Below are positions 1,049-29,346 of a stretch of 34,147 bases of DNA, in pieces. Every line of letters begins with the position of its first letter. Within the stretch, counting starts at the first letter, position 1. Below the pieces are notes generated by a model. The model was not told where the DNA came from and did no database searches. It saw only the letters and a program-made list of their open reading frames with translations. Source of the DNA: an uncultured Spirochaetota bacterium (GTDB lineage Bacteria; Spirochaetota; Spirochaetia; Treponematales; Rectinemataceae). The DNA lies in assembly GCA_903821875.1 (NCBI GenBank), contig CAIJMU010000005.1:1-34147 (forward strand), read 5' to 3'. Made by a program: the position numbers and the translations under genes.

Positions 1049-1352
1049 GGTCAAAGTATGAGCTTTGCCGAGTGACAGGGACTTTAAGCTGCGCGCGAAG
1101 CCTTCATCGGAAATCGCGAAAGTGACGATTTTTCTGATTATCTTCAGTAACGGCCAGGGCTTCGCGAAAATCGCCGATGATCACAAAATAGCTAGATATC
1201 AGCGTTGATTTGTCACCTCCACTGTCACGCTTTCTGGATTCGCTTTGACTGTTACAAACGGCAGACTAGGGTATCGAAACTTCCTATTGGCAAGGTATAC
1301 TGGTTCTTGGGTGCATAATGCACAATACTAGCACAGGTTCAGGAGGGATGGC
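1049..1352. other. Intergenic region with a degenerate inverted repeat
   Basis: No gene is seen in these 304 bases. They contain a large imperfect dyad. CGCGAAGCC (1094-1102) is matched by GGCTTCGCG (1158-1166). The block TCATCGG...TCGCGAA (1104-1120) is matched by TTCGCGA...CCGATGA (1161-1180). The two sets of arms overlap, so several hairpins are possible. No poly-T follows, so it is not a classical terminator. It could be a decayed repeat element. AGGAGG just before 1353 belongs to the next gene. Confidence 0.45.
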
Positions 1353-1736: not shown

Positions 1737-1917
1737 TTTCCCTGGGCGATGCTGAAGCTTTTCAGAATCATGAAGGAGAGGAAAACGAGGCACGGTGAAC
1801 CTGCATTGCCCGCTTCGCCCCACCGATATCCTGCGAATTGCCTTGCGGTATATGCTTTGACAGCAGTGGAGCCAAAAAGGATACTATCGCCGTTATGCAT
1901 ATCAATTATTGAAGAAG

Positions 1918-3534: not shown

Positions 3535-3646
3535 CGGAATTGTCCTTTATTGGCAGATCGTCTCTGATGGTACAGGGAAGGTCGGCTCTTCGAGAATGGG
3601 GGATCCTGGTTCTGCATGCCATTCGCAGGTTGATGTGGGCCTCCGG

Positions 3647-3676
3647 TTGCTCCCATGCCATTCTCCGGGGTAGAAT
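3647..3676 (+). promoter_or_regulatory. Candidate sigma70-like promoter for the dehydrogenase operon
   Basis: TTGCTC (3647-3652) and TAGAAT (3671-3676) are spaced by 18 bases. This would start transcription near 3683, upstream of the AAGGA ribosome site and the ATG at 3705. It is a fair consensus match in the divergent gap between the ABC-F and dehydrogenase genes, and is judged by eye only. Confidence 0.35.
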
Positions 3677-3704
3677 TGCGAAACCCCAGTAAGGACGGTA
3701 CCCA

Positions 3705-4604: not shown

Positions 4605-5671
4605 TGGGAGTGTCCTTCCCCCCGGCCCCCCACGATACCGTTGCAGACGGCGATTTCAGTTTCGGATGGTTCAGAGGGCCTTTCGAGCGCGTGAACTTCC
4701 TGGACATCCGCAGGTTCTGGAGGCGCGGAACTCCAGGCTGGATCAAGACCTGGCGGCTCAAGGAATGGCGTGCCTTCCTCATGGGCGATGCGCGTTGGTC
4801 GGTCATGACCGCCCTCTTCAACGCCAAACTCTTCACGATTGCGTATTTCCACGCATGGGACCGCCAGGAAGGCCGGAGCGTGGGCTTCACGAGAATACTC
4901 CCCGGCAACATCGTCGCCATAGGAGAAAGGCTTTCGCTATCGCATAACGCGTACCACGGACAGCATGCGCGGATCGATTTCGATTTCAATCTGGCGATTG
5001 GCACAATCGCCATAGTGGTGAACTGGAAGCCAGGGAAGGGCCAGCCAGGGTTCCATGGAGCATTCACCCTTCCTTTCAATGTGTCCAAGGCCTGTCCTGC
5101 CTCGGTGGTAATGCCCTTGGGCGGCAAGCGCGCCATGTACTCGACCAAGATAGTCCTTCCGATGGAAGGCAGCCTGGATCTCGCAGGGACGCTGTACCGA
5201 TTCGATCCAAGGACTGCGAGCGCCCTCGTCATCGATCATAAGGGCTTCTATCCCTTCGGTTTCCACTATGACTGGATCGGGGCGGTAGGCATCGATGCAG
5301 CTGGCCGCCGAGTCGGTTTCAGCCTTGCGGCCTCCACCAACCGCGAAGCGGGAGCACCGGTCCACGCAGCGGGATCATCCAACGAGAATTGCGTCTGGAT
5401 CGGCGAGCGTGTGTGGACCCTCCCATCGGTTCGCATAACGCGTGCCGCAGGTTACCAGGGCGACTGGGTCATCCAGGACACTGAAGGGCTCGTCGATCTG
5501 GTGTTTACTCCGAAAGACCATTCCGACATCAGCTTCCACCTTGGCATCATTGAAAGCGACTGGCACGGCCCCTTCGGCGCGTTCAAGGGAACCGTGAAAA
5601 ACGGGGAGGGTGAGACGATCGAAGCCGAAAAGCTGGTAGCCATGGGAGAAGACATGTATCTACGGGCTTGA
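4604..5671 (+). CDS. DUF2804 family protein
   Basis: This 355-residue protein of unknown function matches DUF2804 as I remember it. It has an N-terminal block FSFGWFRGPFERVNFLDIRR, a central beta-rich part with HYDWIGAVG, and the ending FGAFKGTVKNGEGETIEAE then MGEDMYLRA. No signal peptide or membrane helix is seen. The ATG at 4604 overlaps the preceding TGA (TGATG), the best start given the coupling; an in-frame TTG at 4601 is an alternative. It is the second and last gene of an operon with the beta-hydroxyacid dehydrogenase and is followed by a strong terminator. A small-molecule-binding or enzymatic role alongside the dehydrogenase is inference only. Confidence 0.75.
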   Translation: MGVSFPPAPHDTVADGDFSFGWFRGPFERVNFLDIRRFWRRGTPGWIKTWRLKEWRAFLMGDARWSVMTALFNAKLFTIAYFHAWDRQEGRSVGFTRILPGNIVAIGERLSLSHNAYHGQHARIDFDFNLAIGTIAIVVNWKPGKGQPGFHGAFTLPFNVSKACPASVVMPLGGKRAMYSTKIVLPMEGSLDLAGTLYRFDPRTASALVIDHKGFYPFGFHYDWIGAVGIDAAGRRVGFSLAASTNREAGAPVHAAGSSNENCVWIGERVWTLPSVRITRAAGYQGDWVIQDTEGLVDLVFTPKDHSDISFHLGIIESDWHGPFGAFKGTVKNGEGETIEAEKLVAMGEDMYLRA

Positions 5672-5696
5672 AAACATGGAAGGGTCATGATGAAAG

Positions 5697-5728
5697 GGCC
5701 GCCGCGAGACAACTCGCGGCGGCCTTTT
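5697..5728. terminator. Strong bidirectional intrinsic terminator
   Basis: A perfect 12-bp stem, GGCCGCCGCGAG against CTCGCGGCGGCC, closes an ACAA loop. It is followed by TTTT and preceded by AAAG on the plus strand, so it can work both ways. It sits between the convergent DUF2804 and Ldh_2 genes. Confidence 0.9.
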
Positions 5729-5757
5729 CCATTTCCGGGCCTGACGACAGTGGCCGG

Positions 5758-6864
5758 TCAGAAAGGCAGTTTGTGCGGCAATCCCAGCTTGTCCTTGACT
5801 GCCTTGAACGAAGCTTTGAGCGGCTCGTTGAAGGGCACTCCCTTGTCTTTTCGGAACAGCATGATCTCGTATTCCTTTTCCCCGGGAGTCCATATGCGCG
5901 CTGCACCAGGAGCCTTCTTCGAGGCCCGGAGCTGGCGACAGATTTCTCCGACCTGCTTCCTGAAAATGGCGGGATCGACGAAGCTCTCGACTTTTATGGC
6001 CATGAAGGAATGTCCAAGCTCGATGGGCGTGGGTTTTCCCTCGGGTGACATGCCGACGAGGGCCTTCATGAAATTGGCCTGCGACAGGCATGCGGAGAGG
6101 ATTTCCACGGTGAGGGCGTTGCCGTAACCCTTGTAGCCGGCGAGGTCTTCGCCGAGGCCTCCGAGGGGGGTGAGGGCCGCCTTGTCCTTGGTCAGGTCAA
6201 TTAGTACTTGTTTGGTATCGTTGCGGTACTGGCCGTCCTGGCCTATCACCCAGCCGTCGGGAAGGTCCTTCCCGATCCGGTCGTAGAGTTCGAGCTTCCC
6301 CCGCTGGGTGACCGAGGTTGCGTAGTCGGGCATGTAGGGAAAGGGCTCGTCCGAGGGCATGCCCCAGGTCATGGGGTTGGTGCCGAGCATGGGTTCGACG
6401 CCCCAGGTAGGGGCGATGGAAGGACGTGCGCTCGTCGTTGTCATTCCTATCATGCTGTGTTCGACGGCCATGGCTGGATAGTAGAACGCTGCGCCGTAAT
6501 GAGTGGAATTCCGTACGACTGTCATTCCCATGCCGAATTTTTCGGCCTTGTCGATAGCCATCTGCATGGCGCGCTTGGCAATGTAATGACCCATGCCATT
6601 ATGGCCGTCGATGACGGCGGTGGTGGGACCCTCGCGCACGATCTCGAAATTCGTCTTTGGATTCTGTGTGCCTGCCCATATCCGGTCGAGGTAGATGGGC
6701 TTGAAGCGGCCGACACCGTGGGAGTCCACCCCCCGCCGGTCGGCCGCAACGAGGACGTCGGCGCAGACCGCAGCTTCTTCCGTCGGGACGCCGATCGCCT
6801 CGAATCCCGCTCGCATGAAGGCTTCTACTTCGTCGAAGGCCCACCAGGTAACTTTGTCATCCAT
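5758..6864 (-). CDS. Ldh_2 family NAD(P)H oxidoreductase (YiaK/YlbC/AllD-like)
   Basis: This 368-residue protein belongs to the malate/L-lactate dehydrogenase-2 family, which uses an unusual NAD(P)H-binding fold and reduces 2-keto acids. Typical motifs are AADRRGVDSHGVGRF (near 40-54), RNSTHYGAAFYYP, WGVEPMLGTNPMTWG, DYATS, and GYKGYGNALTVEILSACLS. E. coli YiaK of this family reduces 2,3-diketo-L-gulonate to 3-keto-L-gulonate, upstream of the LyxK-SgbH-SgbU-SgbE steps. UlaE/UlaF homologues (the SgbU/SgbE families) and an FGGY kinase lie next door, so a YiaK-like role is a reasoned guess. Malate, ureidoglycolate or another 2-hydroxyacid remain possible. The ATG at 6864 follows AGAGGAG. It is probably second in an operon after the gene at 7005-8054, with a 140-base gap. 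Confidence 0.88.
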   Translation of the reverse strand: MDDKVTWWAFDEVEAFMRAGFEAIGVPTEEAAVCADVLVAADRRGVDSHGVGRFKPIYLDRIWAGTQNPKTNFEIVREGPTTAVIDGHNGMGHYIAKRAMQMAIDKAEKFGMGMTVVRNSTHYGAAFYYPAMAVEHSMIGMTTTSARPSIAPTWGVEPMLGTNPMTWGMPSDEPFPYMPDYATSVTQRGKLELYDRIGKDLPDGWVIGQDGQYRNDTKQVLIDLTKDKAALTPLGGLGEDLAGYKGYGNALTVEILSACLSQANFMKALVGMSPEGKPTPIELGHSFMAIKVESFVDPAIFRKQVGEICRQLRASKKAPGAARIWTPGEKEYEIMLFRKDKGVPFNEPLKASFKAVKDKLGLPHKLPF

Positions 6865-7004
6865 GTCGTGCTCCTCTTGTGCCTACATCGTACCATGGAG
6901 TTAGCATGGATGGATTATGAATGGAGAGTCGGGCGCGACGCGCCGCCGAAGGCAAAGGCAGAGCCGCGGACGCCCCGCGAGAGCCAGAATCCGCAGCTGC
7001 GGAC

Positions 7005-8054
7005 TCAGTCCGTGATGAAATACAGGGCCGCCTCGCCCTTTTCCCGGTTGGCCGAAATGATGATGTCACGGTCCGGCCCGTTGAGCACGGCGACATTGCT
7101 CGGACCGACACCTGTATCAATTGTGACGGCTGTGAGGGAGGGCAATCCGGCTGCATCTGGTGCGGCAGCCTGCACGAGGAACAAGTGCTGGCTTCCCCGT
7201 CTGCAGCCGCCGATGAAGGTGGGGATGTTCCGCAGTCTTGTACCGACGACGACGTGGTAGAACTCCGCGATTTCGGGATGTTCCCATATACGGAGGTATT
7301 TTCCGCCGATGCGCTTGTAGACGCGGAAATACCCGCCGTGCCAAGGCTCGATGGTGGCGTATTCGAGCTCGCCGTCGCCGTCGATGTCGCAGGCGGCTAC
7401 GTCGCTGATCTGCCAGTCCATGAAGCGCTCCACGCTCCAGTCGTCGCCTGCGGCGGCGGGGGGCGTGACCGCGAAGGCGCCCTCGTCGCTCGTGATGAGT
7501 CCCGCTTCCCGACCCTTCCAGGTCGATCGTGCGTAGCCGTGGTTGCGGAAGAGGCCGTCCTTGATCACACGAAGTTCGAGGCGGCTGTCCCAGTCCTTGG
7601 CGAGCTGGCCGACATAGACCTTACCGGCCTTTGACCAGTCATCACGGGTTTCCTTGCTCTCTGCCAGCGTACATCCAAGAAAAAGTACCCTGCCATCGCA
7701 CTCGAAGAGGTCAAAGCGGTGAATGTAGGGCAGCTTGAGTATCTCCCTCGATTCGAAGCTGCCGTCTGCCTGCGGCTTGACCCAGACCACAATGGCCTCG
7801 TCCCACTGGAAGAGCTTGAAGAATTTCTGGATGGCGAGGAATTCCCCATTTTTTCCGGGGATGGGAACGATAGACATGGTGCCGCCAGGGCCATCCCAGA
7901 CGCTCCGTTGCTGTTTAAAATCCGGCCCACTCCAGGAAAGGCAAGCACCCTCGCCCTCTGTAGCTAAAAGAATGGTAGGCTCTCCGTCGATGGGAAATGC
8001 CGCTGTTGCATAGCAACGGGCTAGATTGGCCAGGGCCTTCTTTTCAATCCTCAT
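7005..8054 (-). CDS. Cytoplasmic FG-GAP/VCBS-like beta-propeller protein, function unknown
   Basis: This 349-residue protein has repeated beta-strand blocks. One FG-GAP-like calcium motif is clear: ACDIDGDGELEYATIEPWHG, about two-thirds along. Later strands include VAVLNGPDRDIIISANREKG. It has no signal peptide (it begins MRIEKKALANL), which is unusual for FG-GAP proteins and suggests a cytoplasmic propeller. The ATG at 8054 has AAGGAG six bases upstream. It is the first gene of the leftward operon leading to the Ldh_2 enzyme. It faces the FGGY kinase across an operator-bearing gap, so it is likely controlled with the sugar-acid cluster. A sugar-binding or lactonase-like propeller would suit the setting but is not shown. 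Confidence 0.7.
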   Translation of the reverse strand: MRIEKKALANLARCYATAAFPIDGEPTILLATEGEGACLSWSGPDFKQQRSVWDGPGGTMSIVPIPGKNGEFLAIQKFFKLFQWDEAIVVWVKPQADGSFESREILKLPYIHRFDLFECDGRVLFLGCTLAESKETRDDWSKAGKVYVGQLAKDWDSRLELRVIKDGLFRNHGYARSTWKGREAGLITSDEGAFAVTPPAAAGDDWSVERFMDWQISDVAACDIDGDGELEYATIEPWHGGYFRVYKRIGGKYLRIWEHPEIAEFYHVVVGTRLRNIPTFIGGCRRGSQHLFLVQAAAPDAAGLPSLTAVTIDTGVGPSNVAVLNGPDRDIIISANREKGEAALYFITD

Positions 8055-8106
8055 GCAGCACTCCTTGGATGGACGGCTAAGTATGAGTGATAAGCGATTC
8101 TCGATT

Positions 8107-8119
8107 GATCGAAATGATC
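8107..8119. promoter_or_regulatory. Putative DeoR operator (GATCG-AAA-TGATC)
   Basis: A 13-bp near-palindrome, GATCGAAATGATC, lies in the gap between the divergent gene at 8054 and the kinase at 8168. The same pattern recurs at 12235-12247 and, as a perfect palindrome, at 14584-14596. The two GATC cores are 9 bp apart at each place. The DeoR-family gene at 9708 is the only regulator in the cluster, so it is the likely binder. Confidence 0.65.
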
Positions 8120-8167
8120 TTTAGATGTAGGCTATAAGTATCATTATGTTCCTTTGGGGGTCAAGGC

Positions 8168-9685
8168 TTGAATGGGATTGTGACACTCGATATTGGAACC
8201 ACCAGCCTCCGCGCGACCCTCCATGATGAAGAGGGGAGGGCACTGGCTTCGGATCAACGAGTGAACCTCCCTGTGTATTATCCCGATGGCCGGGTTGAAC
8301 AAGACGCGGAGGCATGGGAAATCCATATTCCCTCGATCCTCCGGGGCATTGCAGGGAAGGCAGGACTGTCTGGAGTTTCGATTGCGGGTCTGTCACTGAC
8401 TGCCCAGCGATCCTCTGTCATTCCAGTCGACAGGGAGGGACAGGCCCTCCGGCCAGCCATCATGTGGCAGGATCTCCGGACGAAGGCTCTCTGTACCGAG
8501 TTGGGTCGCGATGACAGGCTTATTTTCAGCACGACCGGGCTGAGGGTAGGGACGGTCTACTCGGGCATCAAGATGCTCTGGATACGGCGGAACGAGCCCG
8601 AGGTCTTTGCGCGGACCTACAAGATGCTTGGCATCCATGATTTTGTCCTGCATATGTTGACCGGGCGCTTTGTCACCGACCATACGCTCGCTTCCAGGAC
8701 CAATCTCTTCGATCTTGAGAAACTCATCTGGGACGCAGGCCTGACGGCGACCTTCGGAGTCGGGCCAGGAATGCTCTGCGACCTGGTGCCGCCAGGTTCC
8801 GTTGTCGGCGGCCTTCTTTCAGGCATGGCGCGCGAAACAGGGCTCCCCTCGGGGCTTCCCGTCATCAGCGCAGGTGGCGACCAGCAATGCGCTGCCCTCG
8901 GCCTGGGCCTCTTTTCCCAGGACCGGGCGATCACCAACACCGGCACCGGTTCCTACCTGATCGGCCACTCCGACCGGCCCCTCATCGATCCGGAGATGCG
9001 GGTTTCGTGCAATGTGTCAGGTCTTCCCGGGGCCTATATCGTCGAGGCAGCACTTCCCGCTTCGGGCAGCGTTTTCCGCTGGTTCTCGGAGCTTTTCTCT
9101 GCTGGAACGAATGCCTGCGAGGATGACTTCGATTCCCTCTGCGCGGAGGCAGAAGCCTCGGGGCCAGGGGCGAAGGGGGTTCTCCTCATTCCCCATTTCA
9201 ACGGTTCAGGCACGCCGCTCTGGGACTCGGACGCGCGCGGACTCTTTTTCAACCTCTCGCTTTCGACCACCCGCGGGGACATGGCACGCGCCATCCTCGA
9301 GGGAATAGCCTTCGAACTCGGCGGCAGCCTCGGTCTCCTCGAAGAGCTCTGTGGAACTGTTACCTCGGTGAGCGTATCCGGAGGCTTGACCCGCGCTCCC
9401 CTCTTCAACCAGATTCAGGCTGACGTGTTCGGAAAGCCGACCCTCCGCTATCCGGGAGCCGAGGCGACTTCGCTGGGCGCATGGATGGCCGGGGCCGTCG
9501 CTACAGGAATCGCGGCCAGCTATCCGGCTGCCTTCGCGAGCGCGACGAGGGCCGAAGGACCCGTCCGCTTCGAGCCGAGTTCCGAAAATCGCTTACGGTA
9601 CAGGGAACTCCGAGGGCGTGCCCTCGCTGTCTATGCCGCCCTCGCGGCTCCAGAAATCAGGCAACTCTTCGCCCAGGCAAAGTGA
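8168..9685 (+). CDS. FGGY-family carbohydrate kinase
   Basis: This 505-residue ATP-dependent sugar kinase has the two-domain FGGY fold (xylulokinase, L-xylulose/LyxK, glycerol kinase relatives). It starts with the phosphate-binding motif TLDIGTTSLRATL. It continues with a substrate-domain block around AGGDQQCAALGLGL, NTGTGSYLIG, and a C-terminal ATPase part with GSGTPLWDSDARG, RAILEGIAFELGG and VSGGLTRAPLFNQI. The start is TTG 8168 with GGGGG upstream; GTG 8180 is a less likely alternative. In this cluster it probably phosphorylates the imported acid or keto sugar (for example 3-keto-L-gulonate, as LyxK does, or L-ascorbate). That would replace the phosphorylation normally done by the Ula PTS. 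Substrate is inferred from context. The deoR gene follows by 22 bases. Confidence 0.88.
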   Translation: MNGIVTLDIGTTSLRATLHDEEGRALASDQRVNLPVYYPDGRVEQDAEAWEIHIPSILRGIAGKAGLSGVSIAGLSLTAQRSSVIPVDREGQALRPAIMWQDLRTKALCTELGRDDRLIFSTTGLRVGTVYSGIKMLWIRRNEPEVFARTYKMLGIHDFVLHMLTGRFVTDHTLASRTNLFDLEKLIWDAGLTATFGVGPGMLCDLVPPGSVVGGLLSGMARETGLPSGLPVISAGGDQQCAALGLGLFSQDRAITNTGTGSYLIGHSDRPLIDPEMRVSCNVSGLPGAYIVEAALPASGSVFRWFSELFSAGTNACEDDFDSLCAEAEASGPGAKGVLLIPHFNGSGTPLWDSDARGLFFNLSLSTTRGDMARAILEGIAFELGGSLGLLEELCGTVTSVSVSGGLTRAPLFNQIQADVFGKPTLRYPGAEATSLGAWMAGAVATGIAASYPAAFASATRAEGPVRFEPSSENRLRYRELRGRALAVYAALAAPEIRQLFAQAK

Positions 9686-9707
9686 GACGACACATGAAGG
9701 CAGCACT

Positions 9708-10508
9708 ATGAGCGAAGACGCGAAGGCGGACCCCGCCTCGGTATCCAACTACCGCCACAAGAAGATCCTGGAACTCCTCTACCAGAGGAGCGCAGTCTCG
9801 GCCGAGGAGCTGTCCCAGGAATTCGGGGTTTCCAAGATCACGATACGCCGCGACCTTGACGCCCTCGCTGCAGGCAAGCTTCTCGAGCGCACGCGGGGCG
9901 GGGCGACCGTCACGGCCGATCCCCATCTCGAGGCCTACTTCGAGGAGAAGGATTCGATGGCCAAGCGCGAAAAGCGCTTGATTGGCAAGTATGCCTCGTC
10001 CCTGATCTCGGATCGTGACACTGTGTTCCTGAACGCGGGCTCGACCACCCTGGAGGTCCTCCGCCATATCCAGGGGACGAAGGTGAAGGTTGTCACCAAC
10101 AATGCCGCCGCCCTTTCCATCGACCTCGACCCCGATCTCGAGCTCATCATGCTCGGTGGGGAGTACCGGCCTCATTCAAGATCGCTGATCGGTGACCTCG
10201 CCATGGCCAACATCAGGCGCATCTTCTCGAGCAAGACGATACTCGGCATCAACGGCATCAGCCTGGAGCAGGGCTTCACCTCGGCGGTATACCAGGAGAC
10301 TGCGGTGAACGGCGCGATGATCGAGAATTCGAGCTCGCAGATAATCATGGTCGCCGACCATACCAAGATGGACTGTGTTTCGAGCTTCCTCACCTGTCCG
10401 CTTTCGATAATAGACCTACTTGTGACAGACTGGCTGAGCCCTCCGGAATTCCTCGATGAGCTGCGCGCAGCAGGGCTCAAGGTGGCGGTAGTGGGCGAGG
10501 AGGGGTGA
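9708..10508 (+). CDS. DeoR-family transcriptional repressor
   Basis: This 266-residue regulator has an N-terminal winged helix-turn-helix with the DeoR signature (RHKKILELLYQRSAVSAEEL, then FGVSKITIRRDLDAL and LERTRGGA). A C-terminal phosphosugar-sensing domain contains FLNAGSTTLEVLRHI, VVTNNAAALSID and LIMLGGEYRP. Such proteins usually release their operators on binding a phosphorylated sugar. The ATG at 9708 has GAAGG upstream; longer upstream frames lack a ribosome site. It lies just after the FGGY kinase, so it is likely expressed with it and autoregulated through the site at 8107. Predicted targets are the three gaps with the GATCG-AAN-YGATC palindrome. E. coli UlaR is of the same family. 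Confidence 0.9.
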   Translation: MSEDAKADPASVSNYRHKKILELLYQRSAVSAEELSQEFGVSKITIRRDLDALAAGKLLERTRGGATVTADPHLEAYFEEKDSMAKREKRLIGKYASSLISDRDTVFLNAGSTTLEVLRHIQGTKVKVVTNNAAALSIDLDPDLELIMLGGEYRPHSRSLIGDLAMANIRRIFSSKTILGINGISLEQGFTSAVYQETAVNGAMIENSSSQIIMVADHTKMDCVSSFLTCPLSIIDLLVTDWLSPPEFLDELRAAGLKVAVVGEEG

Positions 10509-10530
10509 CGCAGAGGCGGAACGCGGCTTT

Positions 10531-10573
10531 TAGCTGCCCGCGCGGCTATTAGTACTTACTACCCGCGCAGCTA
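10531..10573. terminator. Inverted repeat between convergent genes, possible weak terminator
   Basis: TAGCTGC (10531-10537) pairs either with GCGGCTA (10542-10548, one G-T pair) or with GCAGCTA (10567-10573), which overlaps the ulaF stop. GCGCGG and CCGCGC add a further inner match. T-runs are short. It lies between the convergent deoR and ulaF genes, where a two-way terminator is expected, but the signal is weak. Confidence 0.35.
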
Positions 10574-11269
10574 TTTCTGTCCGTAGTAGGCCCCCGGCCC
10601 GTGCTTGCGGTTGAAGTGCTTGGCCAGGAGGTGGGCAGGCATCGGGCCGAGGCCCGGCGCCAGGGTGAGGGACTGCAGGGCCATACGCGCCACGAGCTCG
10701 GTTACCGCCGCCTTGTGCACTGCCTCTTCGGCGTCCTTGCCCCAGGTGAAGGGACCATGGTTGGCCACGAGGACGGCCGGCATGCGGAGGGGGTCGAGGC
10801 CGAGCTTCTCGAAGCATTCAATTATGACGATGCCGGTCTCCTTTTCGTACTCGCCTGAGGTCTCCGCCTCGGAAAGGAGACGCGTGCAGGGTATGGGGCC
10901 TTCGAAGTAGTCCGCGTGGGTGGTGCCGAGGGCGGGGATGGCCATGCAGGCCTGGGCCCAGCTGGTCGCCCAGGCCGAGTGGGTGTGCACAATGCCACCG
11001 AGGCCGGGCCAGCGGTTGTAGAGTTCGAGGTGGGTGGGGAGGTCGGAGGAGGGGCGGAGCTTGCCGGCGACGGTCTTTCCGCCAAGATCCACGACGACGA
11101 TGTCCTCTGGGCGCATCGATTTGTAGGGTACGCCGCTCGCCTTGATCGCGATGAGGCCGCTCTCTGGATCGCGCGCGCTCACGTTGCCAAAGGTAAAATC
11201 GACAAGGCCGAGCTTCGGCAACTCGAGGTTGGCTTTCAGGACCTCGATCCTGAGTTTCTCGTACTTCAT
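10571..11269 (-). CDS. ulaF: L-ribulose-5-phosphate 4-epimerase (UlaF/AraD family)
   Basis: This 232-residue class II aldolase-fold enzyme converts L-ribulose 5-phosphate to D-xylulose 5-phosphate. It aligns by eye along its whole length with E. coli UlaF/SgbE/AraD, for example [40 protein letters not shown] and ending [11 protein letters not shown]. The metal and catalytic residues are present: Asp76, His95, His97 (HTH), His171 ([11 protein letters not shown]) and the C-terminal Tyr. The start is ATG 11269; its ATGA overlaps the ulaE stop, so the two are translationally coupled. It is the final step to the pentose phosphate pathway. The symbol follows the ula context; araD would be equally valid by sequence. 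Confidence 0.93.
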
Positions 11270-12120
11270 GAAAAGCCTCCCAGCCTGAGCCGCTCTTCGA
11301 TCCAGATCTTTGCCCTGGCGATTTCGGCCAGGGGATCGGGCAATTTCTCCGTCCACATCTCGATGAGGAAGGGTCCAGCATAGCCCAGACGGCTCAGGAT
11401 GGAGAAGCTGCGGACAAAGTCGACGTTCCCTTCTCCAAAGGGGATCTCGCGGAAGGCGCCGGCGAAATCGGGGCCGACCGACCGTGTTTCCTTTATATGG
11501 ACTCCCACTATGTGGTTGATGCCGATCGCCAGTTCGTGGTCCAGGTCGTTGCCCCAGGCGCTGAGGTTTCCGAGGTCGGGATAGACGCTGAACCAGGGCG
11601 AGGGGAGGCGCTCCTTCAGGAGGAGGTATTTGGAGATCGAGTTGAGGAAGGTCGTGTCCATGATCTCGAGGGAGAGCATGACCTGGTAGCGGGCAGCCAT
11701 CTCCAGTGATGTTTCCATTCCCTGCATGTAGCGTTCGCGGCTTTCGGCGCTCGCCTTCTCGTAGTACACGTCGTAGCCTGCAAGCTGGATGACACGGATG
11801 CCGGTATCGGCAGCGAAGTGGATGGCCGCTTCCATGATGCGGAGGGACTCGGCACGGATGGCCGGATCAGCGCTGCCGAGGGGGAACTTCCTGTGACCAG
11901 ACAGGCACATGGTAGGGACACGGATGCCTGTGTTGACAGTAGCCCGGCTGAAATCGAGACGCTCGGCAGGAGACCAGGAAAGGCGGGCAAGCCGCTCGGG
12001 CGACTCGTCCACCGAAAGCTCCATGAAGTCGAAGCCAGCGTCGGCTACTGCCCTGAAGCGATCCTTCCAGGAGAGGTCCTTTGGGAGGGCCTTTTCGTAG
12101 ATCCCCAAGGGATTGGTCAT
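11266..12120 (-). CDS. ulaE: L-xylulose-5-phosphate 3-epimerase (UlaE/SgbU family)
   Basis: This 284-residue TIM-barrel enzyme converts L-xylulose 5-phosphate to L-ribulose 5-phosphate. It matches E. coli UlaE closely throughout: [10 protein letters not shown] at the start, [53 protein letters not shown], and [10 protein letters not shown] near the end. The metal ligands of the family are present (Glu152 in LEIMD, Asp182 in PDLGN, His208 in VHIKE and the Glu of LIEMW). ATG 12120 follows GAGGAG. It is first in the leftward ulaE-ulaF operon, divergent from ulaG, with two operator-like sites in the shared gap. Confidence 0.95.
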
Positions 12121-12204
12121 GGTCTCTCTCCTCTACATCGCCAAGGTTGAAGGCCTAGCATATATATCACAGTGGTCCACGTTTGAGGAAATGGCAAGTC
12201 TAAA

Positions 12205-12217
12205 GATCAAAATGAAC
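12205..12217. promoter_or_regulatory. Degenerate second operator-like site (GATCAAAATGAAC)
   Basis: This 13-mer matches the GATCG-AAN-YGATC pattern with two mismatches and keeps the 9-bp half-site spacing. It lies exactly 30 bp (about three helical turns) from the better site at 12235, on the ulaE side of the gap. It may serve the leftward promoter or cooperative binding. Confidence 0.4.
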
Positions 12218-12225
12218 TTTACATA

Positions 12226-12254
12226 TTGCAAAATGATCGAAGTGATCGTACCAT
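12226..12254 (+). promoter_or_regulatory. Candidate ulaG promoter with operator in its spacer
   Basis: TTGCAA (12226-12231) and TACCAT (12249-12254) are 17 bases apart. The operator GATCGAAGTGATC (12235-12247) fills the spacer, the position expected for direct repression. The predicted start near 12261 leaves a leader of about 40 bases before the AGGAGG and TTG start of ulaG. Confidence 0.4.
12235..12247. promoter_or_regulatory. Putative DeoR operator (GATCG-AAG-TGATC)
   Basis: GATCGAAGTGATC differs from the kinase-side site (8107-8119) by one central base. It lies in the divergent ulaE/ulaG gap. See the entries at 8107 and 14584 for the other copies. Confidence 0.65.
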
Positions 12255-12302
12255 CCACCCTGCACGCTCATTGCAGATAGGGATTCCCCTAGGAGGAACA
12301 GA

Positions 12303-13367
12303 TTGTCGAAGGTCGATGACATTACCCGCGAGTCCTGGATTCTCAGCACCTTCCCCGAGTGGGGAACCTGGCTCAACGAGGAAATAGAAAAGGAAGTGGT
12401 GGCTCCGGGCAGCTTTGCCATGTGGTGGCTTGGCTGTACAGGCATATGGCTCAAGTCAGCGGGTGGAGCGAACATCTCCGTGGACTTCTGGGTCGGTACG
12501 GGCAAGCGCACGGGCAAGGACCCCCTCATGACGCCCCAGCACCAGATGCAAAGGATGTCGGGGGTGAGGAATCTGCAACCCAACCTCCGCAACTCGATCT
12601 TTCCCCTAGATCCCTTCGCCATCAGGCAGATCGACGCTGTCCTCTCGACCCACAACCACAACGATCACATCGATGCCAATGTCGCGGCTGCGGTTCTCAA
12701 GAACTGTCCGGCCGATGTGCCCTTTATCGGACCCAAGGCCTGTGTGGACCTCTGGCTGGGTTGGGGCGTTCCTGCCTCCCGCTGCATTACGGTCCGGCCC
12801 GGAGACTCCGTAAAGATCAAGGACATCGAAATCCTAGCCCTCGACTCCTTCGACCGCACCGTTCTTGTAACTGCGCCCAAAGGCGTCAGCCTCAAGGGAA
12901 AGCCCGTCCTGGACATGGACGAGAATGCGGTCAACTACCTGTTCAAGACCTCGGGTGGCACGCTCTACCATTCCGGCGATTCACACTACGCCAATTATTA
13001 CGTGAAGCACGGGAAGGACTACCCGATCGATGTGGCCTTGGGGTCTTTTGGCGAAAATCCCCGTGGCATCACTGACAAAATGACCTCGAGCGACATTCTC
13101 CGTATGGCCGAGGCCCTGCAGGCTAAGGTCATCATCCCCTTTCACCACGACATCTGGAGCAACTTCCAGGCTGACCCCAAGGAAATCAAGGTCCTCTGGG
13201 AGATGCGGAAGGACCGCCTGGCCTACGGCTTCAAGCCCTTCCTCTGGGAGGTGGGTGGCAAGTTCGTCTATCCCGCCGACAAGGACAAGCTCGAGTACCA
13301 CCACCCACGCGGAGCCTCTGACGCTTTTGAGGTGGACCATGACCTGCCCTTCCTGTCGTTCCTCTAG
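12303..13367 (+). CDS. ulaG: L-ascorbate-6-phosphate lactonase (UlaG)
   Basis: This 354-residue metallo-beta-lactamase-fold enzyme opens the lactone of L-ascorbate 6-phosphate to 3-keto-L-gulonate 6-phosphate. It is nearly collinear with E. coli UlaG from the first residues ([18 protein letters not shown]) to the last (DLPF.SFL). The metal site HNHNDH lies at 117-122, SGDSH at 224-228 and [13 protein letters not shown] from 280. The start is TTG 12303, confirmed by the family N-terminus and by AGGAGG 12291-12296. It is a cytoplasmic enzyme. It is first in a plus-strand unit with the UroD-like gene and divergent from ulaE-ulaF. It is the strongest evidence that the cluster handles ascorbate-type lactones. 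Confidence 0.97.
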
Positions 13368-13390: not shown

Positions 13391-14518
13391 ATGACGGGTC
13401 ATGAACGGGTAACCGCCGCCTTTGCCCACAAGGAAAGCGACAGGGTTCCCTTCGATTTCGGGGGGCACCTCATTTCGGGCATCCATCGCAATGCCTATCT
13501 TCGGCTTCGCGCGGGGCTGGGCCTGCCCGGACTGGAAACTCCCGCCTTTCACCGAAGGCAGCAGACTATCCTTCCACACGAGGACCTCCTCGTGAAGTTC
13601 GAGGTGGATACCCGCTCCATCGTGTCCTCCTCGCATCGCCATGAGAACTGGGAGGATGCGAGCTATGAGTCCTACCGTGACGAGTTCGGTGCCGAGTGGC
13701 ATAGAAATAAGGAGGGGGGGCTCTATTTCGACCTTTGCAAGTCGCCCTTTGCGGGGGAGGAGGGCCTCGAGCTGGCCAGGAAGACCCCTGCGCCCGACTG
13801 GTCTGAGCCCTTCCGGACGCAGGGCTTGGCAGAACGTTCTGCCGCCGCGGGAACTGCCTGCCAGGTGCTCGACCTCCCCATGGGCCTTGAGGTCCAGGAC
13901 GGCTGTTTTTTTCTCCGTGGCTACATGGATTTCTACATGGACCTGGCCGCTGACGAGGAGGGAGCCGCCTTCCTCATGGACCGGCAGTTGGAGATGCAGC
14001 TGGCCTGGTGGAACTCGGCGCTCGCGAAGTTGCCGGGCATCAGCGTGCTCCGTATCGGTGACGACCTCGGGGACCAGCGGAGCACACTGATCGATCCCGA
14101 GCAGTACAGGCGACTTATCAAGCCGCGGCACGCGAAGCTTTTTTCCACGATCAAGAAAGCCTTCCCGGCTGTATCCATCTTGTTCCACTGCGATGGGGCC
14201 ATCAGGGAACTCATCCCGGACCTCATCGAGACCGGGATCGATGGCCTGAATCCGGTCCAGTACACGCTGCCGGGGATGGATGCTGCCAGCCTGAAGCGGG
14301 ATTTTGGAGCAGACCTGACGTTTTGGGGCGGGGCCCTCGATACCCAGACCGTTCTTCCGAAGGGAAGCCCGGCAGAGATTCGCGACGAAGTCAGGCGCAA
14401 TATCGATATTCTGGCTCCAGGAGGCGGATTTGTATGCTGCCAGACCCACATCATCCAGAGCGATGTGCCCACTGAGAACTTGATAGCCTTTTTTGAGGCT
14501 GTCGATGCCTGCAGATAA
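13391..14518 (+). CDS. Uroporphyrinogen decarboxylase (URO-D) family protein
   Basis: This 375-residue protein has the UroD TIM-barrel fold, shared by heme-pathway decarboxylases and by cobamide methyltransferases such as MtaA. Recognisable blocks are ERVTAAFAHKESDRVPFDFG at the start, RIGDDLGDQRS, LFHCDGAIRELIPDLIETGI, LNPVQ, and FWGGALDTQTVLPKGSPAEI. The HxC zinc motif of methyltransferases is not intact (His is followed by CDG), so a methyl-transfer role is doubtful. It lies 23 bases after ulaG and before the importer. UroD-like genes of unknown function occur in sugar operons. Here it could supply the decarboxylation that UlaD normally performs, but that is speculation. ATG 13391 has GGAG upstream. 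Confidence 0.8.
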   Translation: MTGHERVTAAFAHKESDRVPFDFGGHLISGIHRNAYLRLRAGLGLPGLETPAFHRRQQTILPHEDLLVKFEVDTRSIVSSSHRHENWEDASYESYRDEFGAEWHRNKEGGLYFDLCKSPFAGEEGLELARKTPAPDWSEPFRTQGLAERSAAAGTACQVLDLPMGLEVQDGCFFLRGYMDFYMDLAADEEGAAFLMDRQLEMQLAWWNSALAKLPGISVLRIGDDLGDQRSTLIDPEQYRRLIKPRHAKLFSTIKKAFPAVSILFHCDGAIRELIPDLIETGIDGLNPVQYTLPGMDAASLKRDFGADLTFWGGALDTQTVLPKGSPAEIRDEVRRNIDILAPGGGFVCCQTHIIQSDVPTENLIAFFEAVDACR

Positions 14519-14583
14519 GTACGAAAAACCTCGATATTTAATCTTTTCTGCCTTGCGCGAAGCACATTGTGATTGTAGTGTTG

Positions 14584-14606
14584 GATCGAAACGATCAATA
14601 TGATCG
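14584..14606. promoter_or_regulatory. Double operator: three GATC half-sites at 9-bp spacing
   Basis: Two overlapping perfect palindromes share one half-site: GATCGAAACGATC (14584-14596) and CGATCAATATGATCG (14592-14606). The GATC cores start at 14584, 14593 and 14602. They lie upstream of the binding-protein gene. A possible promoter TTGTAG (14573) - 17 bases - CAATAT (14596) would overlap them. This is the strongest copy of the cluster-wide motif and suggests tight control of the importer. Confidence 0.7.
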
Positions 14607-14655: not shown

Positions 14656-15600
14656 ATGTCCAAGACAAAGATTCTGGCAATCCTGATCGCCATTTCCGTA
14701 CTGGTTTCCGGTGCGAACCTGGCAGCGCAGTCCGTCTACAAGATCGGCTACCTCCCCAGCACGCTGGGGCAGGCTGCCACCAAGGCCTGGGGCGTCGGCA
14801 TCGACAATGCCCTCAAGGCTGCCGGCAACATTCCCCTCCAGTCCGTCGATGCCATGATGAAGGCAGAGACCCAGGTTTCCATGATGGATGATTTCATCAA
14901 CCAGGGCTTTGACTTCATCATCCTCCAGCCCATCGACGCTGCCGCCCTCACCGCCAGTGTGAAAAAAGCCGAGTCCAAGGGCATTCCTGTCATTACCCTC
15001 AACACCGATACCCTCGCCCCGCACTTCGCCTGCGTTTCGATGGACGACTATGGAGCCGGCTACAAGGTCGGCGAAGCCATGGCCAAGCAGATCGGCGGAA
15101 AGGGCAATGTCGCCATCATCCAGTCTCCTCCCGGAGCCATCGCCGGCGTCGATCGCGAAAAGGGCTTCCGCGCCGCCATCGCCAAGATTCCCGCCATCAA
15201 GATCGTCGGGGCCCAGAACGCCGAATGGAACAAGGACAAGGCCCTCGCCCTCATGAACGCCTTCCTCCAGGCCAACAAGCAACTCGACGGCGTCTTCGCA
15301 GTCAATGACAACATGGCCGAGGGCGCTGCCATCGCCGCCGAGGCAGCCGGTCGCCTCAAGGACGTGAAGATCTGGGGCTTCAATGGCCAGCTCAGCACCC
15401 TCCTCCAGATCGAGCAAGGCAAGGTAGCCGGCACGGCCTACACCAACGCCTATGAGCAGGGTGCCACCGCTGCGCGCATGGCCCTCGACGTGCTCCGTTC
15501 CGGAACCAAGACCTTTGCCAAGACCCAGGTCATCACGGTTCCTCCCTTCATGGCCACGATCGAGAACGTCGGGCAGATTCCCGCCAACATCCGCTGGTAA
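14656..15600 (+). CDS. Sugar ABC transporter periplasmic binding protein (RbsB-like)
   Basis: This 314-residue protein has a cleavable signal peptide (MSKTK, then a hydrophobic stretch to about residue 25, cleavage near NLAAQ-SVYKIG). It is a type I periplasmic binding fold: two alpha/beta lobes with DFINQGFDFIILQPID, GIPVITLNTDT, GYKVGEAMAKQIGGKGNVAI, FAVNDNMAEGAAIAAE and VAGTAYTNAYEQG. It delivers a sugar-like ligand to the two permeases. It has an excellent AAAGGAGG before ATG 14656. It is first in a four-gene transport operon controlled by the double operator just upstream. The ligand is unknown; the neighbouring enzymes point to ascorbate, a diketo-gulonate or a related acid. Confidence 0.92.
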   Translation: MSKTKILAILIAISVLVSGANLAAQSVYKIGYLPSTLGQAATKAWGVGIDNALKAAGNIPLQSVDAMMKAETQVSMMDDFINQGFDFIILQPIDAAALTASVKKAESKGIPVITLNTDTLAPHFACVSMDDYGAGYKVGEAMAKQIGGKGNVAIIQSPPGAIAGVDREKGFRAAIAKIPAIKIVGAQNAEWNKDKALALMNAFLQANKQLDGVFAVNDNMAEGAAIAAEAAGRLKDVKIWGFNGQLSTLLQIEQGKVAGTAYTNAYEQGATAARMALDVLRSGTKTFAKTQVITVPPFMATIENVGQIPANIRW

Positions 15601-15618
15601 GTCAAGCTTCGAGAACCG

Positions 15619-15659
15619 ACAGGTTCCCAGGAGAGATCCCGGGGCCTGTCTGCCTTTTA
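15619..15659 (+). terminator. Imperfect hairpin between binding protein and permease genes, possible attenuator
   Basis: ACAGG-TTCCC (15619-15628) pairs imperfectly with GGGG-CCTGT (15641-15649), followed by CTGCCTTTT. Such hairpins after a binding-protein gene often stabilise its mRNA end or cut down read-through, giving more binding protein than permease. Stem quality is moderate. Confidence 0.4.
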
Positions 15660-15687
15660 TTCCAGCCAACCCCAAGGGAGGCCGCCC

Positions 15688-16749
15688 GTGCCCATAGCAA
15701 CGCTCAGACGCATGATCCTCATCGGATTGCTCCTTGCCATCGGGGCTGTCCTCTCCTTCCTGAATCCCAGCTTCCTGAAGCTCGACAATCTCATGACCCT
15801 CCTCCAGGAGGCTTCCCAGACTGGCATAGTCGCCATCGGATTCACCCTCGTGTTGATCACGGCTGGCATCGATATGTCCATCGGCGCCGTCATAGCGGTT
15901 ACTGCGATGGTCTGCGTCAATTTCCTTTCCTACACCCCCATTCCCGCCTTCCTCTTCATACCCCTCTCCCTGCTCACTGGCTGTCTCGTGGGCCTCTTCA
16001 ACGGCTACTTCATCACGCACTTCAAGCTGCCTGAGTTCATTGTTACCCTGGCTTCGCGCGGAATCCTCGCAGGCATTGCGCTGATCATAGCAGTCAAGGA
16101 CAGCGACGGTTTCGTTTCCAATGTCTACATCCAGGATCCCGTCTACCTCAGTTTCGGGGGGACGGTAGGTCCGGTTTATATAGTAACGATTGTGTTCATA
16201 GTGCTGGCTTTCCTGACGCAGTTCTTCCTCAAGAGGACGCGGGCGGGGACAAACATCTACGCTACCGGCGCCAATCCCGCCGCGGCCCGCCTTTCTGGCA
16301 TCAATACCGACAGGTCCATCTACGGCGTCTACATGTTTTCCGGCTTCTGCGCCTCGCTGGCAGCCATCTTCATTTCCGCCCGCATGATGACGGCCATGCC
16401 GGAGTTTGGCCTGGGCTCGGAGATGGACGTCATCGCCTCGGTGGTCATTGGCGGAACGCCCTTCACCGGCGGTGTCGGCGATATCTGGGGCACGGTGATA
16501 GGGACCCTCTTCCTGGCGCTCATCAAGAACGGCATCCTGAAACTGGGAATTTCTCCCTACGTCCAGCCCATCGCCATCGGTGGCATCATTGTCGTAGTCG
16601 TCATGTTCGACGTCTGGTACAAGGCCTTCGCCGAGGGCATAGCTAAGCGCTCCGCGTATCGCAGGAAGCAGAGCGGAGAGGCCGCAGCCGCCGTGGCGGC
16701 TGAAGCTGACGCAGTAGCTGGCGGGGACGGGAAGGGGGAGCGGTCATGA
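15688..16749 (+). CDS. Sugar ABC transporter permease 1 (RbsC-like)
   Basis: This 353-residue inner-membrane permease of the ribose/galactofuranose type has about 8-10 hydrophobic segments. Family marks include GIDMSIGAVIAVTAM, GLFNGYFITHFKLPEFIVTLAS, YATGANPAAARLSGIN and DVIASVVIGGTPFTGGVG. The start is GTG 15688 after AAGGGAGG. A charged, alanine-rich C-terminal tail is cytoplasmic. The stop overlaps the ATPase start (ATGA at 16746). It is one of two different permeases in the operon, so the channel is probably a heterodimer, as in YtfT-YjfF. Confidence 0.92.
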   Translation: MPIATLRRMILIGLLLAIGAVLSFLNPSFLKLDNLMTLLQEASQTGIVAIGFTLVLITAGIDMSIGAVIAVTAMVCVNFLSYTPIPAFLFIPLSLLTGCLVGLFNGYFITHFKLPEFIVTLASRGILAGIALIIAVKDSDGFVSNVYIQDPVYLSFGGTVGPVYIVTIVFIVLAFLTQFFLKRTRAGTNIYATGANPAAARLSGINTDRSIYGVYMFSGFCASLAAIFISARMMTAMPEFGLGSEMDVIASVVIGGTPFTGGVGDIWGTVIGTLFLALIKNGILKLGISPYVQPIAIGGIIVVVVMFDVWYKAFAEGIAKRSAYRRKQSGEAAAAVAAEADAVAGGDGKGERS

Positions 16750-18284
16750 GCGAAAAAGCGCTGGCTGATTCCCCGGTGGCCCTCCTCGAGTGCCGCCGGA
16801 TCAACAAGTCCTACAACGGACCGATGGTGCTCTCCGAGGTCGATTTCTCCATGAAGCGGGGCGAGATCCATGCCCTCGTGGGCGAGAATGGCGCCGGAAA
16901 GTCGACCCTGATAAAGATCGTCACGGGTGTGACGAACCGGAATTCCGGCGAAATGCTCTTCGAGGGCAGGCCCATCGGCATCGAGCACTCCAAGACCGCT
17001 GCCCAGGTACTGGGCATCGCGGTCATCTACCAGGAACTCAGCCTCATCCACGGCATGAGCGTAGCCCAGAACCTCTTCCTCACCCGCGAACCCCGGCTTC
17101 CGGGCCTGCCCTTCATCGACATCGGGAAGATGAACTCTCTGGCCCAGGAGCTGATCGACCGCTACGGCTTTACCCTCAAGGCGACGGACGTCATCGATAG
17201 CTTGTCCATCGCCCAGCGCCAGACGGTGGAGATCCTCAAGGCCCTCAACAGCAAGGCGTCCCTCGTCATCATGGACGAGCCGACCAGCTCCCTCACCTCC
17301 ACCGAATCGGCACAATTGTTCGGGATCATCAAGCGGCTCAAGGAAGACGGCATCGGCGTCCTCTACATTTCCCACCGGATGGAGGAGGTCTACGCGCTCT
17401 CAGACCGGGTTACCGTGCTCCGTGACGGCCGCAAGGTCGCGGTGCTCGAGAAGGCCGAGATCCACCCCGAGGAGATCATCCGCCTCATGATCGGGAGGAA
17501 GCTCGACGACAGGGATTCCGTCCATACGATGCGGAAAAGCGACCGCGAGGTGGTGCTCGAGGTAAAGGGGCTTTCATCCGAAGGCAAGTTCAGCGGGATT
17601 GATTTCCAGCTCCACGCGGGCGAGATCCTGGGAATAGGGGGCCTTGTCGGATCGGGAAGGACCGAATTGGTGCGCGCCCTCTACGGCATCGATCCCCACG
17701 ATTCGGGCAGCGTCGAGTACCTCGGCAAACCTTGGGAACCTGGTGTCGCCGGGTCCATCCGGGGCGGCTTTGGCTTTATCCCCGAGGAGAGGCGACTCCA
17801 GGGCATCATGGGCCTGATCAGCATGACGGGCAACATAGGCATTACCAACATCGATGTCATCCGGAAGATGGGCTTCGTGAGCGACAGGAAGGAACTCGAC
17901 CTGGCAAGAAAGGCGATCGGCCTCCTCAACATCAAGCCCGCTGATCCCTCCGTCCTGGTCGGCAACCTCTCGGGCGGAAACCAGCAGAAGATCGTCGTCG
18001 GCAAGTGGCTGATCCGTGACCTCAAGCTTCTCATCGTCGACGAACCTACTGTCGGCATCGACATCGGCGCGAAGGAGGAGATGTACCAGACCTTCGCGCG
18101 CCTGGCGGAGGCTGGGGTTTCCATCATCCTCGTTTCCTCCGACCTGCCAGAGCTTACTCGAATCTCCCACCGCATCCTTGTGCTTCGGAAGGGGAGGATC
18201 ATCAAGGAATTCTCGGAGGGACAAGTGACCGAGGAAGACGTGCTCAAGGCCTCGTCGGGCATCCTCCCGGGCGGTGCAAAATGA
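16746..18284 (+). CDS. Sugar ABC transporter double ATP-binding protein (RbsA-like)
   Basis: This 512-residue protein has two fused ABC domains. The first has Walker A GENGAGKST (46-54), the short signature LSIAQRQ and IMDEPTSSL. The second has the degenerate loop GLVGSGRTE usual for this family, signature LSGGNQQKIVVGKW and LIVDEPTVGIDIG. It powers import of a monosaccharide-like ligand through the two adjacent permeases. Both ends overlap neighbouring genes by four bases (ATGA), so translation is coupled. Length matches the RbsA/MglA/XylG class. Specificity cannot be read from the ATPase. Confidence 0.95.
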   Translation: MSEKALADSPVALLECRRINKSYNGPMVLSEVDFSMKRGEIHALVGENGAGKSTLIKIVTGVTNRNSGEMLFEGRPIGIEHSKTAAQVLGIAVIYQELSLIHGMSVAQNLFLTREPRLPGLPFIDIGKMNSLAQELIDRYGFTLKATDVIDSLSIAQRQTVEILKALNSKASLVIMDEPTSSLTSTESAQLFGIIKRLKEDGIGVLYISHRMEEVYALSDRVTVLRDGRKVAVLEKAEIHPEEIIRLMIGRKLDDRDSVHTMRKSDREVVLEVKGLSSEGKFSGIDFQLHAGEILGIGGLVGSGRTELVRALYGIDPHDSGSVEYLGKPWEPGVAGSIRGGFGFIPEERRLQGIMGLISMTGNIGITNIDVIRKMGFVSDRKELDLARKAIGLLNIKPADPSVLVGNLSGGNQQKIVVGKWLIRDLKLLIVDEPTVGIDIGAKEEMYQTFARLAEAGVSIILVSSDLPELTRISHRILVLRKGRIIKEFSEGQVTEEDVLKASSGILPGGAK

Positions 18285-19285
18285 GTGATACAAAAACAGT
18301 TGGCGGGGGCGGAACCAAACTCCTCCTGGCCCGATTCCGGCTCTTCTTCATCCTCATCCTCCTCATGGCCGTGCTTTCGGTGGTCTCGCCGCGTTTCCTC
18401 TCGCTCGAGAACCTGAGCAATGTCCTGTGGTCGGTTTGCATCATCGGGATCATGTGCTCGGGCTTCATCTATTCGCCCATCACCGGTGGCATCGACCTCT
18501 CGGTCGGCTCCATGGTGGCCCTCGCGGGCATCATCGCAAACGTCCTCATGAACATCGTCCACATGCCGATGCTGCCTGCCCTCCTCTTGACGCTCGTCTT
18601 CGGGCTCCTGGTCGGACTCGTAAACGGGGTCGTGACGACGAAATTCAGGGTGCCACCCTTCATAGTCACGATGGCCGCCAAGACCTATCTCTTTGGCATC
18701 GCGATGTTCGTTTCCAACGGTGACACGATAACCATCATGGGGCCCAAGGACTTCCTGTCCATCGGCGTCGGGAAATTCCTCGGCCTGCCTATCCCGATCT
18801 ATATCATGGTAGTCATGATCATCGCGAGCCACATCCTCCTCAAGCACACGGTCTTCGGACGACGGGCCATCGCGGTTGGCGCGAACGAGGTCTCGGCTAA
18901 ATTGTCCGGAGTGAACCCTGACAGCACGCGCATCCTTGCCTATGTCATTTCATCTGGCACGGCGACTGTCGCAGGCATCGTGATGGCCTCGCTGACCCAG
19001 CAGGCCTACGCACCCAACGCTGCCGGCTACGAGTTCGACGTCATCACTGCAGTCGTCATAGGTGGTACGAGTCTCCTGGGCGGATCGGGCTCGGTGGCCG
19101 GCGCGCTGATCGGCGCGGTCATGGTGGGTTTCATAAACAACGGCCTCAACCTGATGAACATGCCCGCCTCCTTCCATCCCCTGGTGACGGGTATCGTCAT
19201 CCTCATTGCCCTGATCCTGAACCAGGGCTTCACGCTGCCGGCCTGGATGAAACCTAAAAAGAGGGCGGCAGGCGGCCAGGCCTGA
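18281..19285 (+). CDS. Sugar ABC transporter permease 2 (RbsC-like)
   Basis: This 334-residue inner-membrane permease is related to but distinct from the first. Marks include GGIDLSVGSMVALAGI, GLVNGVVTTKFRVPPFIVTMA, VGANEVSAKLSGV, FDVITAVVIGGTSLLGGSG and GALIGAVMVGFINNGLNLM. The start ATG overlaps the ATPase stop. It is last in the transport operon; a strong terminator follows after about 100 bases. With permease 1 it likely forms a heterodimeric channel. Confidence 0.93.
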   Translation: MSDTKTVGGGGTKLLLARFRLFFILILLMAVLSVVSPRFLSLENLSNVLWSVCIIGIMCSGFIYSPITGGIDLSVGSMVALAGIIANVLMNIVHMPMLPALLLTLVFGLLVGLVNGVVTTKFRVPPFIVTMAAKTYLFGIAMFVSNGDTITIMGPKDFLSIGVGKFLGLPIPIYIMVVMIIASHILLKHTVFGRRAIAVGANEVSAKLSGVNPDSTRILAYVISSGTATVAGIVMASLTQQAYAPNAAGYEFDVITAVVIGGTSLLGGSGSVAGALIGAVMVGFINNGLNLMNMPASFHPLVTGIVILIALILNQGFTLPAWMKPKKRAAGGQA

Positions 19286-28843: not shown

Positions 28844-28845
28844 AC

Positions 28846-29343: not shown

Positions 29344-29346
29344 TGC

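Follow-up and report, generated by a model that had tools for sequence, protein, structure and literature searches.

A predicted beta-propeller protein, encoded on the minus strand at positions 7005-8054 of the window (the whole stretch of 34,147 nucleotides analysed here), is the likely stand-in for UlaD, the decarboxylase that is missing from an otherwise recognisable cluster of genes for the breakdown of L-ascorbate. Its gene lies some 5 kb from, and on the other strand to, that of a UroD-family protein (13391-14518, plus strand), which the preliminary description of this DNA had put forward as a candidate for the same step, an assignment that is probably wrong. The presence, absence and position of the genes, as well as the predicted fold and the invariant residues of the protein, are observed, and it is from these that we infer the reaction. 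Descriptions of bacterial vitamin C fermentation treat UlaD as a fixed step, and in the literature searched we found no report of a propeller replacing it.

The ascorbate cluster and its decarboxylase gap

Genes of the UlaG, UlaE and UlaF types lie together with a DeoR-type regulator in one cluster of the window, the combination by which an ula regulon is recognised. The gene for the L-ascorbate-6-phosphate lactonase, ulaG (12303-13367, plus strand), matches NF008688 with an E-value of 4.4e-193 (641 bits against a cut-off of 306), that for the L-xylulose/L-ribulose-5-phosphate 3-epimerase of the UlaE/SgbU type (11266-12120, minus strand) matches NF009689 with E 1e-120, and that for the L-ribulose-5-phosphate 4-epimerase of the UlaF/AraD type (10571-11356, minus strand) matches NF006047 with E 4e-101 from residue 32 onwards, its true start probably lying near 11263. 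The UlaR-like regulator of the DeoR family (9618-10508, plus strand; Pfam DeoRC and HTH_DeoR) scores 104.5 bits with the UlaR model, below the cut-off of 244. An FGGY carbohydrate kinase (8168-9685, plus strand; Pfam FGGY_N/C) precedes it, and a sugar ABC transporter (14656-19285, plus strand; Pfam Peripla_BP_4, BPD_transp_2 and ABC_tran), comprising a binding protein (14656-15600), a permease (15688-16749), an ATPase (16746-18284) and a second permease (18281-19285), completes the set.

The preliminary description had pointed out that the UlaD step was missing from the window, as we also find, and had suggested a search of the genome for ulaD/sgbH. An OMPdecase-family search of the source genome (4.68 Mb in 193 contigs, 97.2% complete) found neither, the sole gene of that family being assigned to PyrF because it is flanked by pyrC- and pyrK-like genes, as read from the neighbouring ORFs. 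Since ulaG and the ulaE- and ulaF-type genes are present and the only OMPdecase gene is that of PyrF, the gap at the decarboxylase step is real.

Judging from gene context, we consider it quite probable that this is an ascorbate breakdown cluster in which the propeller, and not the UroD-family protein, acts as the decarboxylase. Imported L-ascorbate would be taken up via the ABC transporter and phosphorylated by the FGGY kinase in place of a PTS; UlaG would open the lactone to give 3-keto-L-gulonate 6-phosphate, as is known for the UlaG family; the propeller protein would remove CO2 to yield L-xylulose 5-phosphate, which the UlaE- and UlaF-type epimerases would convert to D-xylulose 5-phosphate. 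Within the propeller, a metal may be held by invariant histidines in the central funnel, and the protein could stabilise the enediolate that results from loss of CO2 by the beta-keto acid.

The arrangement of an operator-like motif is compatible with joint regulation. A site TGATCGAAATGATC (8106-8119, plus strand), which is an exact TGATCRAARTGATC site, lies between the propeller gene and the kinase gene, while a region between ulaE and ulaG (12204-12247, plus strand) contains TGATCGAAGTGATC at 12234 and a copy with two mismatches at 12204, the 14-mer TGATCRAARTGATC being common to the two gaps. Two overlapping copies with two mismatches each stand before the transporter genes (14583-14605, plus strand), and one further, weaker copy is found at 4363. 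The exact 14-mer occurs twice in the 4.68-Mb genome, solely in those two gaps; because the motif was derived from the very gaps that it links, only this uniqueness counts as evidence, and at the level of sequence it suggests that the propeller gene may be under the same control as ulaG.

Near the cluster are also found a DUF2804 protein (4601-5671, plus strand) and an Ldh_2-family dehydrogenase (5758-6864, minus strand); the latter was considered as a YiaK-type 2,3-diketogulonate reductase but not assigned to that type, since its 109.6 bits fall short of the cut-off of 316. Further away, a row of NADH-dehydrogenase-like subunits (30 kDa, 49 kDa, NuoF and NuoG-type) extends over 28840-33498 on the plus strand.

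Propeller and UlaD in ulaG-bearing genomes

Two samples of genomes were compared, namely 98 relatives, of which 15 carry ulaG and for all of which OMPdecase genes were listed, and an even pick of 392 genomes across the phylum, for which OMPdecase genes were listed in the carriers; the search for the propeller gene was extended to the other relatives as well. In the phylum sample the propeller gene is present in 15 genomes, and ulaG in 28 at E 1e-30, of which 24 exceed the model cut-off. The pooled set of 33 ulaG-bearing genomes, which includes one with the gene split over two contigs (G011) and one with a fragment (G086) and leaves out four whose UlaG-like genes fall below the cut-off (G331, G431, G387 and G053), divides into 14 with the propeller and no UlaD, 18 with UlaD and no propeller, one with both and none with neither. 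Fisher's test, applied to the 24 genomes in the phylum sample whose ulaG exceeds the cut-off, gives p = 7.6e-6, a value inflated by relatedness. The raw exclusion is thus strong, yet because the genomes are related only three independent switches are supported: the UlaG tree of 64 rows shows three transitions between the propeller and UlaD states, each required by starred branches, each of the three independent pairs runs in the expected direction, and the phylogenetically corrected sign test gives p 0.25. This tree was built from 69 entries (39 of the best 80 propeller loci described below, 11 further propeller-type loci including the window, and 19 of the ulaD type), from which L145, L159 and L196 dropped out as short and L163 and L170 for want of ulaG.

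Among the relatives, most ulaG clusters resemble that of the window in their transporter, kinase and regulator. The ulaD gene lies near ulaG in five genomes (G006, G009, G012, G040 and G048) and on another contig in two (G005 and G083), whereas in four others (G003, G004, G011 and G042) the genome lacks a UlaD-type gene and ulaG has no UroD gene beside it. In G003 and G004 the binding-protein gene directly follows ulaG with nothing between, and these two and G011 encode propeller homologues with 67-71% identity to that of the window, the homologue in G042 having 35%. The gene order is ulaG, propeller gene, ulaF and ulaE in G011, and ulaG, propeller gene, PTS genes (so named by our own reading) and ulaE in G042. 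The one genome with both genes (G416) has ulaD within 300 bp of ulaG and the propeller gene 0.7 Mb away in a separate kinase-epimerase operon, where it stands after an FGGY kinase gene and between the genes for a 4-epimerase and a 3-epimerase, an order that presumably resembles that of the sgb operon.

A wider survey, in which genome contigs were searched with ten aligned homologues, returned 228 propeller loci. The best 80 of these, which come from Spirochaetota, Bacillota and Pseudomonadota, contain ulaG in 61 cases, UlaE in 56, UlaF in 51 and UlaD in none by blastp; nor did the UlaD HMM match any of them at E<10, although control loci were matched. In 24 of the 80 the propeller gene occupies the position of ulaD, preceded directly by ulaG or a PTS gene and followed directly by ulaF or ulaE. 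The order in Clostridium and its relatives is DeoR-type regulator, ulaG, ulaC, ulaA, ulaB, propeller, ulaF and ulaE, and the propeller gene therefore stands in these operons where ulaD would be. Operons without ulaD but with the propeller gene are distributed over Spirochaetota, Bacillota (Clostridium, Sarcina, Propionispira and Megamonas) and Pseudomonadota. The 61 loci with ulaG are divided between those with only a PTS (28) and those with only a kinase nearby (28), one having both and four neither, a split that fits a kinase doing the phosphorylation of the PTS in clusters of the ABC type. Because the best 80 loci overlap with the samples of relatives and of the phylum, the counts from the 80 loci and from the 33 genomes are not independent. 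Taken together, exclusion and position show the functional equivalence of propeller and UlaD, which is a statement about function and not about chemistry.

Fold and invariant residues of the propeller protein

The propeller protein, of 349 residues, is predicted to be seven-bladed and has no significant family match: it was matched by no Pfam family at E 0.001 and by no NCBIfam model, the FG-GAP_3 profile (PF13517) reaching E 0.031 and 15.3 bits, below the Pfam cut-off of 26.9. The OMPdecase family PF00215, to which UlaD/SgbH belong, gave no Pfam match even at E 10. An AlphaFold2 model built on 47 sequences (the window protein and those of 46 of the best 80 loci) has a pLDDT of 95 and a pTM of 0.92. 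In VIA-align its top match is the propeller of aldos-2-ulose dehydratase (4a7k), with Z 35.8, rmsd 2.5 and 13% identity, 336 of the 349 residues being aligned to residues 20-434 of 4a7k; the next unrelated structure is LGI1 (Z 29.7), followed by integrins (27). Foldseek orders the matches differently, with LGI1 first (E 1e-11) and 4a7k eighth (E 6.8e-9). Since PDB sequence searches, including one with a profile from the propeller alignment, returned nothing significant, the link to aldos-2-ulose dehydratase is a purely structural one.

Seventeen propeller homologues have 23 invariant residues in common, including H112, H172, H239 and H267. All 23 map to the D-A and B-C loops or border on them, and hence lie on one face, by our own assignment of strands to faces from the strand order of the model. 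Such an arrangement in the predicted structure would be that of a metal-containing active-site funnel. We know of no propeller decarboxylase. Dioxygenase-like chemistry on a four-histidine propeller, an idea prompted by comparison with the carotenoid oxygenases, was set aside because many carriers, such as Clostridium, are anaerobes.

Propeller homologues outside ula clusters

Distant homologues (28-32% identity) occur in other sugar-acid contexts, and the family is therefore not specific to ula. At one locus (L176) the homologue adjoins a D-erythronate dehydrogenase and an FGGY kinase; at three others (L173, L183 and L098, the last with about 30% identity) it lies beside dihydroxyacetone-kinase subunits and a dehydrogenase of the tartronate-semialdehyde-reductase type. 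Decarboxylation of 3-oxo-tetronate 4-phosphate in the known tetronate route is the task of an enzyme of the class II aldolase type, the gene for which was not found in L173, L176, L180, L182-L184, L187 or L189. A propeller turning 3-oxo-tetronate into dihydroxyacetone would fit this gene context, as erythronate dehydrogenase and dihydroxyacetone kinase are the neighbours expected if the homologues decarboxylate 3-keto-tetronates to dihydroxyacetone; the tartronate-semialdehyde-reductase neighbours could point to another reaction at those loci. Separately, UlaG-like genes (34-36% identity) are accompanied at two loci (L100 and L101, from G331 and G431; 9-16 kb) by a distant propeller homologue (29-30%) and an ABC transporter of their own, and these genes may form a parallel pathway for a different lactone.

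The UroD-family protein

The ORF at 13391-14518 encodes, from an ATG start, a UroD-family protein of 375 residues, matched by Pfam URO-D with E 5.8e-18 over residues 176-372 only, and begins 23 bp after the stop codon of ulaG. The preliminary description rightly saw a family member without an intact HxC motif directly after ulaG: its metal motif is HCDG, Asp taking the place of the would-be Cys ligand (an HxD variant), while HSCG is found in five of seven aligned paralogues from the same genome. The position of the third-ligand Cys of the MtaA type is taken by His (THIIQ), so that the zinc motif of MtaA/CmuA is lacking, and with the NCBIfam models of that type the protein scores 43.6 bits, far below the cut-off of 235.4. 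A single-query search of the genome-contig collection with this protein gave no match, and among the 98 relatives no UroD match reaches E<1e-90.

Of the two roles that had been guessed for the protein, decarboxylation or an unrelated one-carbon task, the latter is the better. The UroD HMM found a UroD in two of 135 loci, the window and L198, and hence in one of the 134 other related loci. L198 (Megamonas sp. UBA1796, 1331-12601) is a PTS operon of the ascorbate type that also encodes a complete set of corrinoid methyltransferase components, in the order ulaG, zinc-type UroD (HNCG), corrinoid protein, DUF1638, RACo, PTS, HxD UroD (HTDG), propeller, ulaF and ulaE, which suggests growth on methylated ascorbate or a similar compound. 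Contig 56 of the source genome encodes an HxD UroD, RACo and DUF1638 together with a corrinoid protein that shares 63% identity with that of Megamonas, and a sugar ABC transporter is found nearby. It is because of these two gene sets that we read the protein as a methyltransferase, and it may serve, in an accessory role, as a corrinoid-dependent O-demethylase (MT I) that acts on a methylated form of ascorbate or of a sugar, taken up via the same transporter, and so prepares it for the pathway. This is in keeping with the O-demethylases of the UroD superfamily, both with and without zinc, that are known from PMC13222342. We nevertheless stop a little short of being persuaded, as no corrinoid protein or activator was seen beside the ORF in the window cluster, the protein is only 28% identical to its Megamonas counterpart, HxC paralogues are commoner in the source genome and methylated ascorbate is a guess at the substrate.

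UroD paralogues are expanded in the source genome across contigs 12, 16, 56, 68, 176, 178, 182 and others. A second one in the window (25787-26797, minus strand) is of the MtaA type, with an intact HxC (HICG) and third Cys (GCE), and adjoins a gene for a TauE/SafE-family exporter (26934-27725, minus strand).

Alternative explanations

The propeller might instead be an isomerase, epimerase or mutarotase of keto-aldonates, with decarboxylation occurring spontaneously or by a third protein. The protein closest to it in fold is a bifunctional dehydratase that acts on keto-sugars, beta-keto acids by their general chemistry lose CO2 spontaneously, and the D-erythronate dehydrogenase route, suggested by one of the neighbours above, would also need a 2-oxo/3-oxo isomerase; but the exclusion is specific to UlaD and the PTS operons already cover every other Ula step (UlaG, UlaE and UlaF), such that we regard this function as unlikely.

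Decarboxylation of 3-keto-L-gulonate 6-phosphate by the UroD-family protein, as first proposed, has in its favour the position of the ORF directly after ulaG, the altered HxC motif and the fact that the family includes a decarboxylase. Against it, the hemE model TIGR01464 is absent from the matches of the protein at E 0.001, the source genome has 37 UroD-family matches, several of them beside other ABC transporter genes, including those of the sugar type, and UroD is confined to the window and L198 among the 135 loci. The preliminary description had also suggested a check for the absence of ulaD from those ulaG clusters that contain this UroD subfamily; the ulaD-less clusters of G003, G004, G011 and G042 likewise lack UroD and carry a homologue of the propeller instead, with the order of ulaG and binding-protein gene uninterrupted in the first two. 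On such genomic context the proposal is rejected as very improbable.

That ulaD is present in the source genome and hidden in an assembly gap is barely credible even at 193 contigs and 97% completeness, since the gene is absent as well from G001, G003 and G004 and from near-complete genomes such as G042, G341 and G292 (99% completeness).

Implications and comparison with known systems

If the propeller is indeed the decarboxylase, a beta-propeller, whose fold is unusual for decarboxylation, has taken the place of a TIM-barrel enzyme. Genomes now scored as without an ascorbate pathway may have one, and there is a function to be tested for a family that neither Pfam nor NCBIfam names. A more far-reaching proposal, about which we are somewhat more doubtful than about the methyl-transfer role of the UroD-family protein, is that the propeller family might constitute a new class of metal-dependent 3-keto-aldonate decarboxylases, acting on the C6-phosphate of the ascorbate route and on the C4 compounds of erythronate and threonate, that this class would have traded positions with UlaD on three or more occasions across the UlaG tree, and that HxD UroD and corrinoid protein together might open the pathway to methylated ascorbate.

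With the corrinoid methyltransferases of the UroD superfamily (MtaA, CmuA, MtvB, OdmB and CdmB) the protein at 13391-14518 has the URO-D match in common, and its HxD relative in Megamonas stands in an operon with a corrinoid protein and RACo; it differs from them in having HxD for HxC, in a score far under the MtaA cut-offs and in the lack of an adjacent corrinoid protein. The propeller, for its part, has in common with the VCBS/FG-GAP beta-propeller superfamily, as presented in PMC8023676, one DxDGDG motif and a weak FG-GAP_3 match, and differs from it in the sub-cut-off score and in being encoded within metabolic operons.

Closer in structure is aldos-2-ulose dehydratase (PDB 4a7k, 4a7y and 4a7z), a metal-containing enzyme of keto-sugars according to the PDB titles, which has the same seven-bladed propeller fold as that predicted for the window protein; it is, however, a protein of approximately 880 residues with additional C-terminal domains that the 349-residue protein lacks, and its reaction is a dehydration, whereas that proposed here is a decarboxylation. 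From UlaD/SgbH, finally, which are TIM barrels, the predicted propeller differs in fold, with no sequence relation found between them; yet the two have the same operon position and the same slot in the pathway, and in ulaG genomes they are mutually exclusive.
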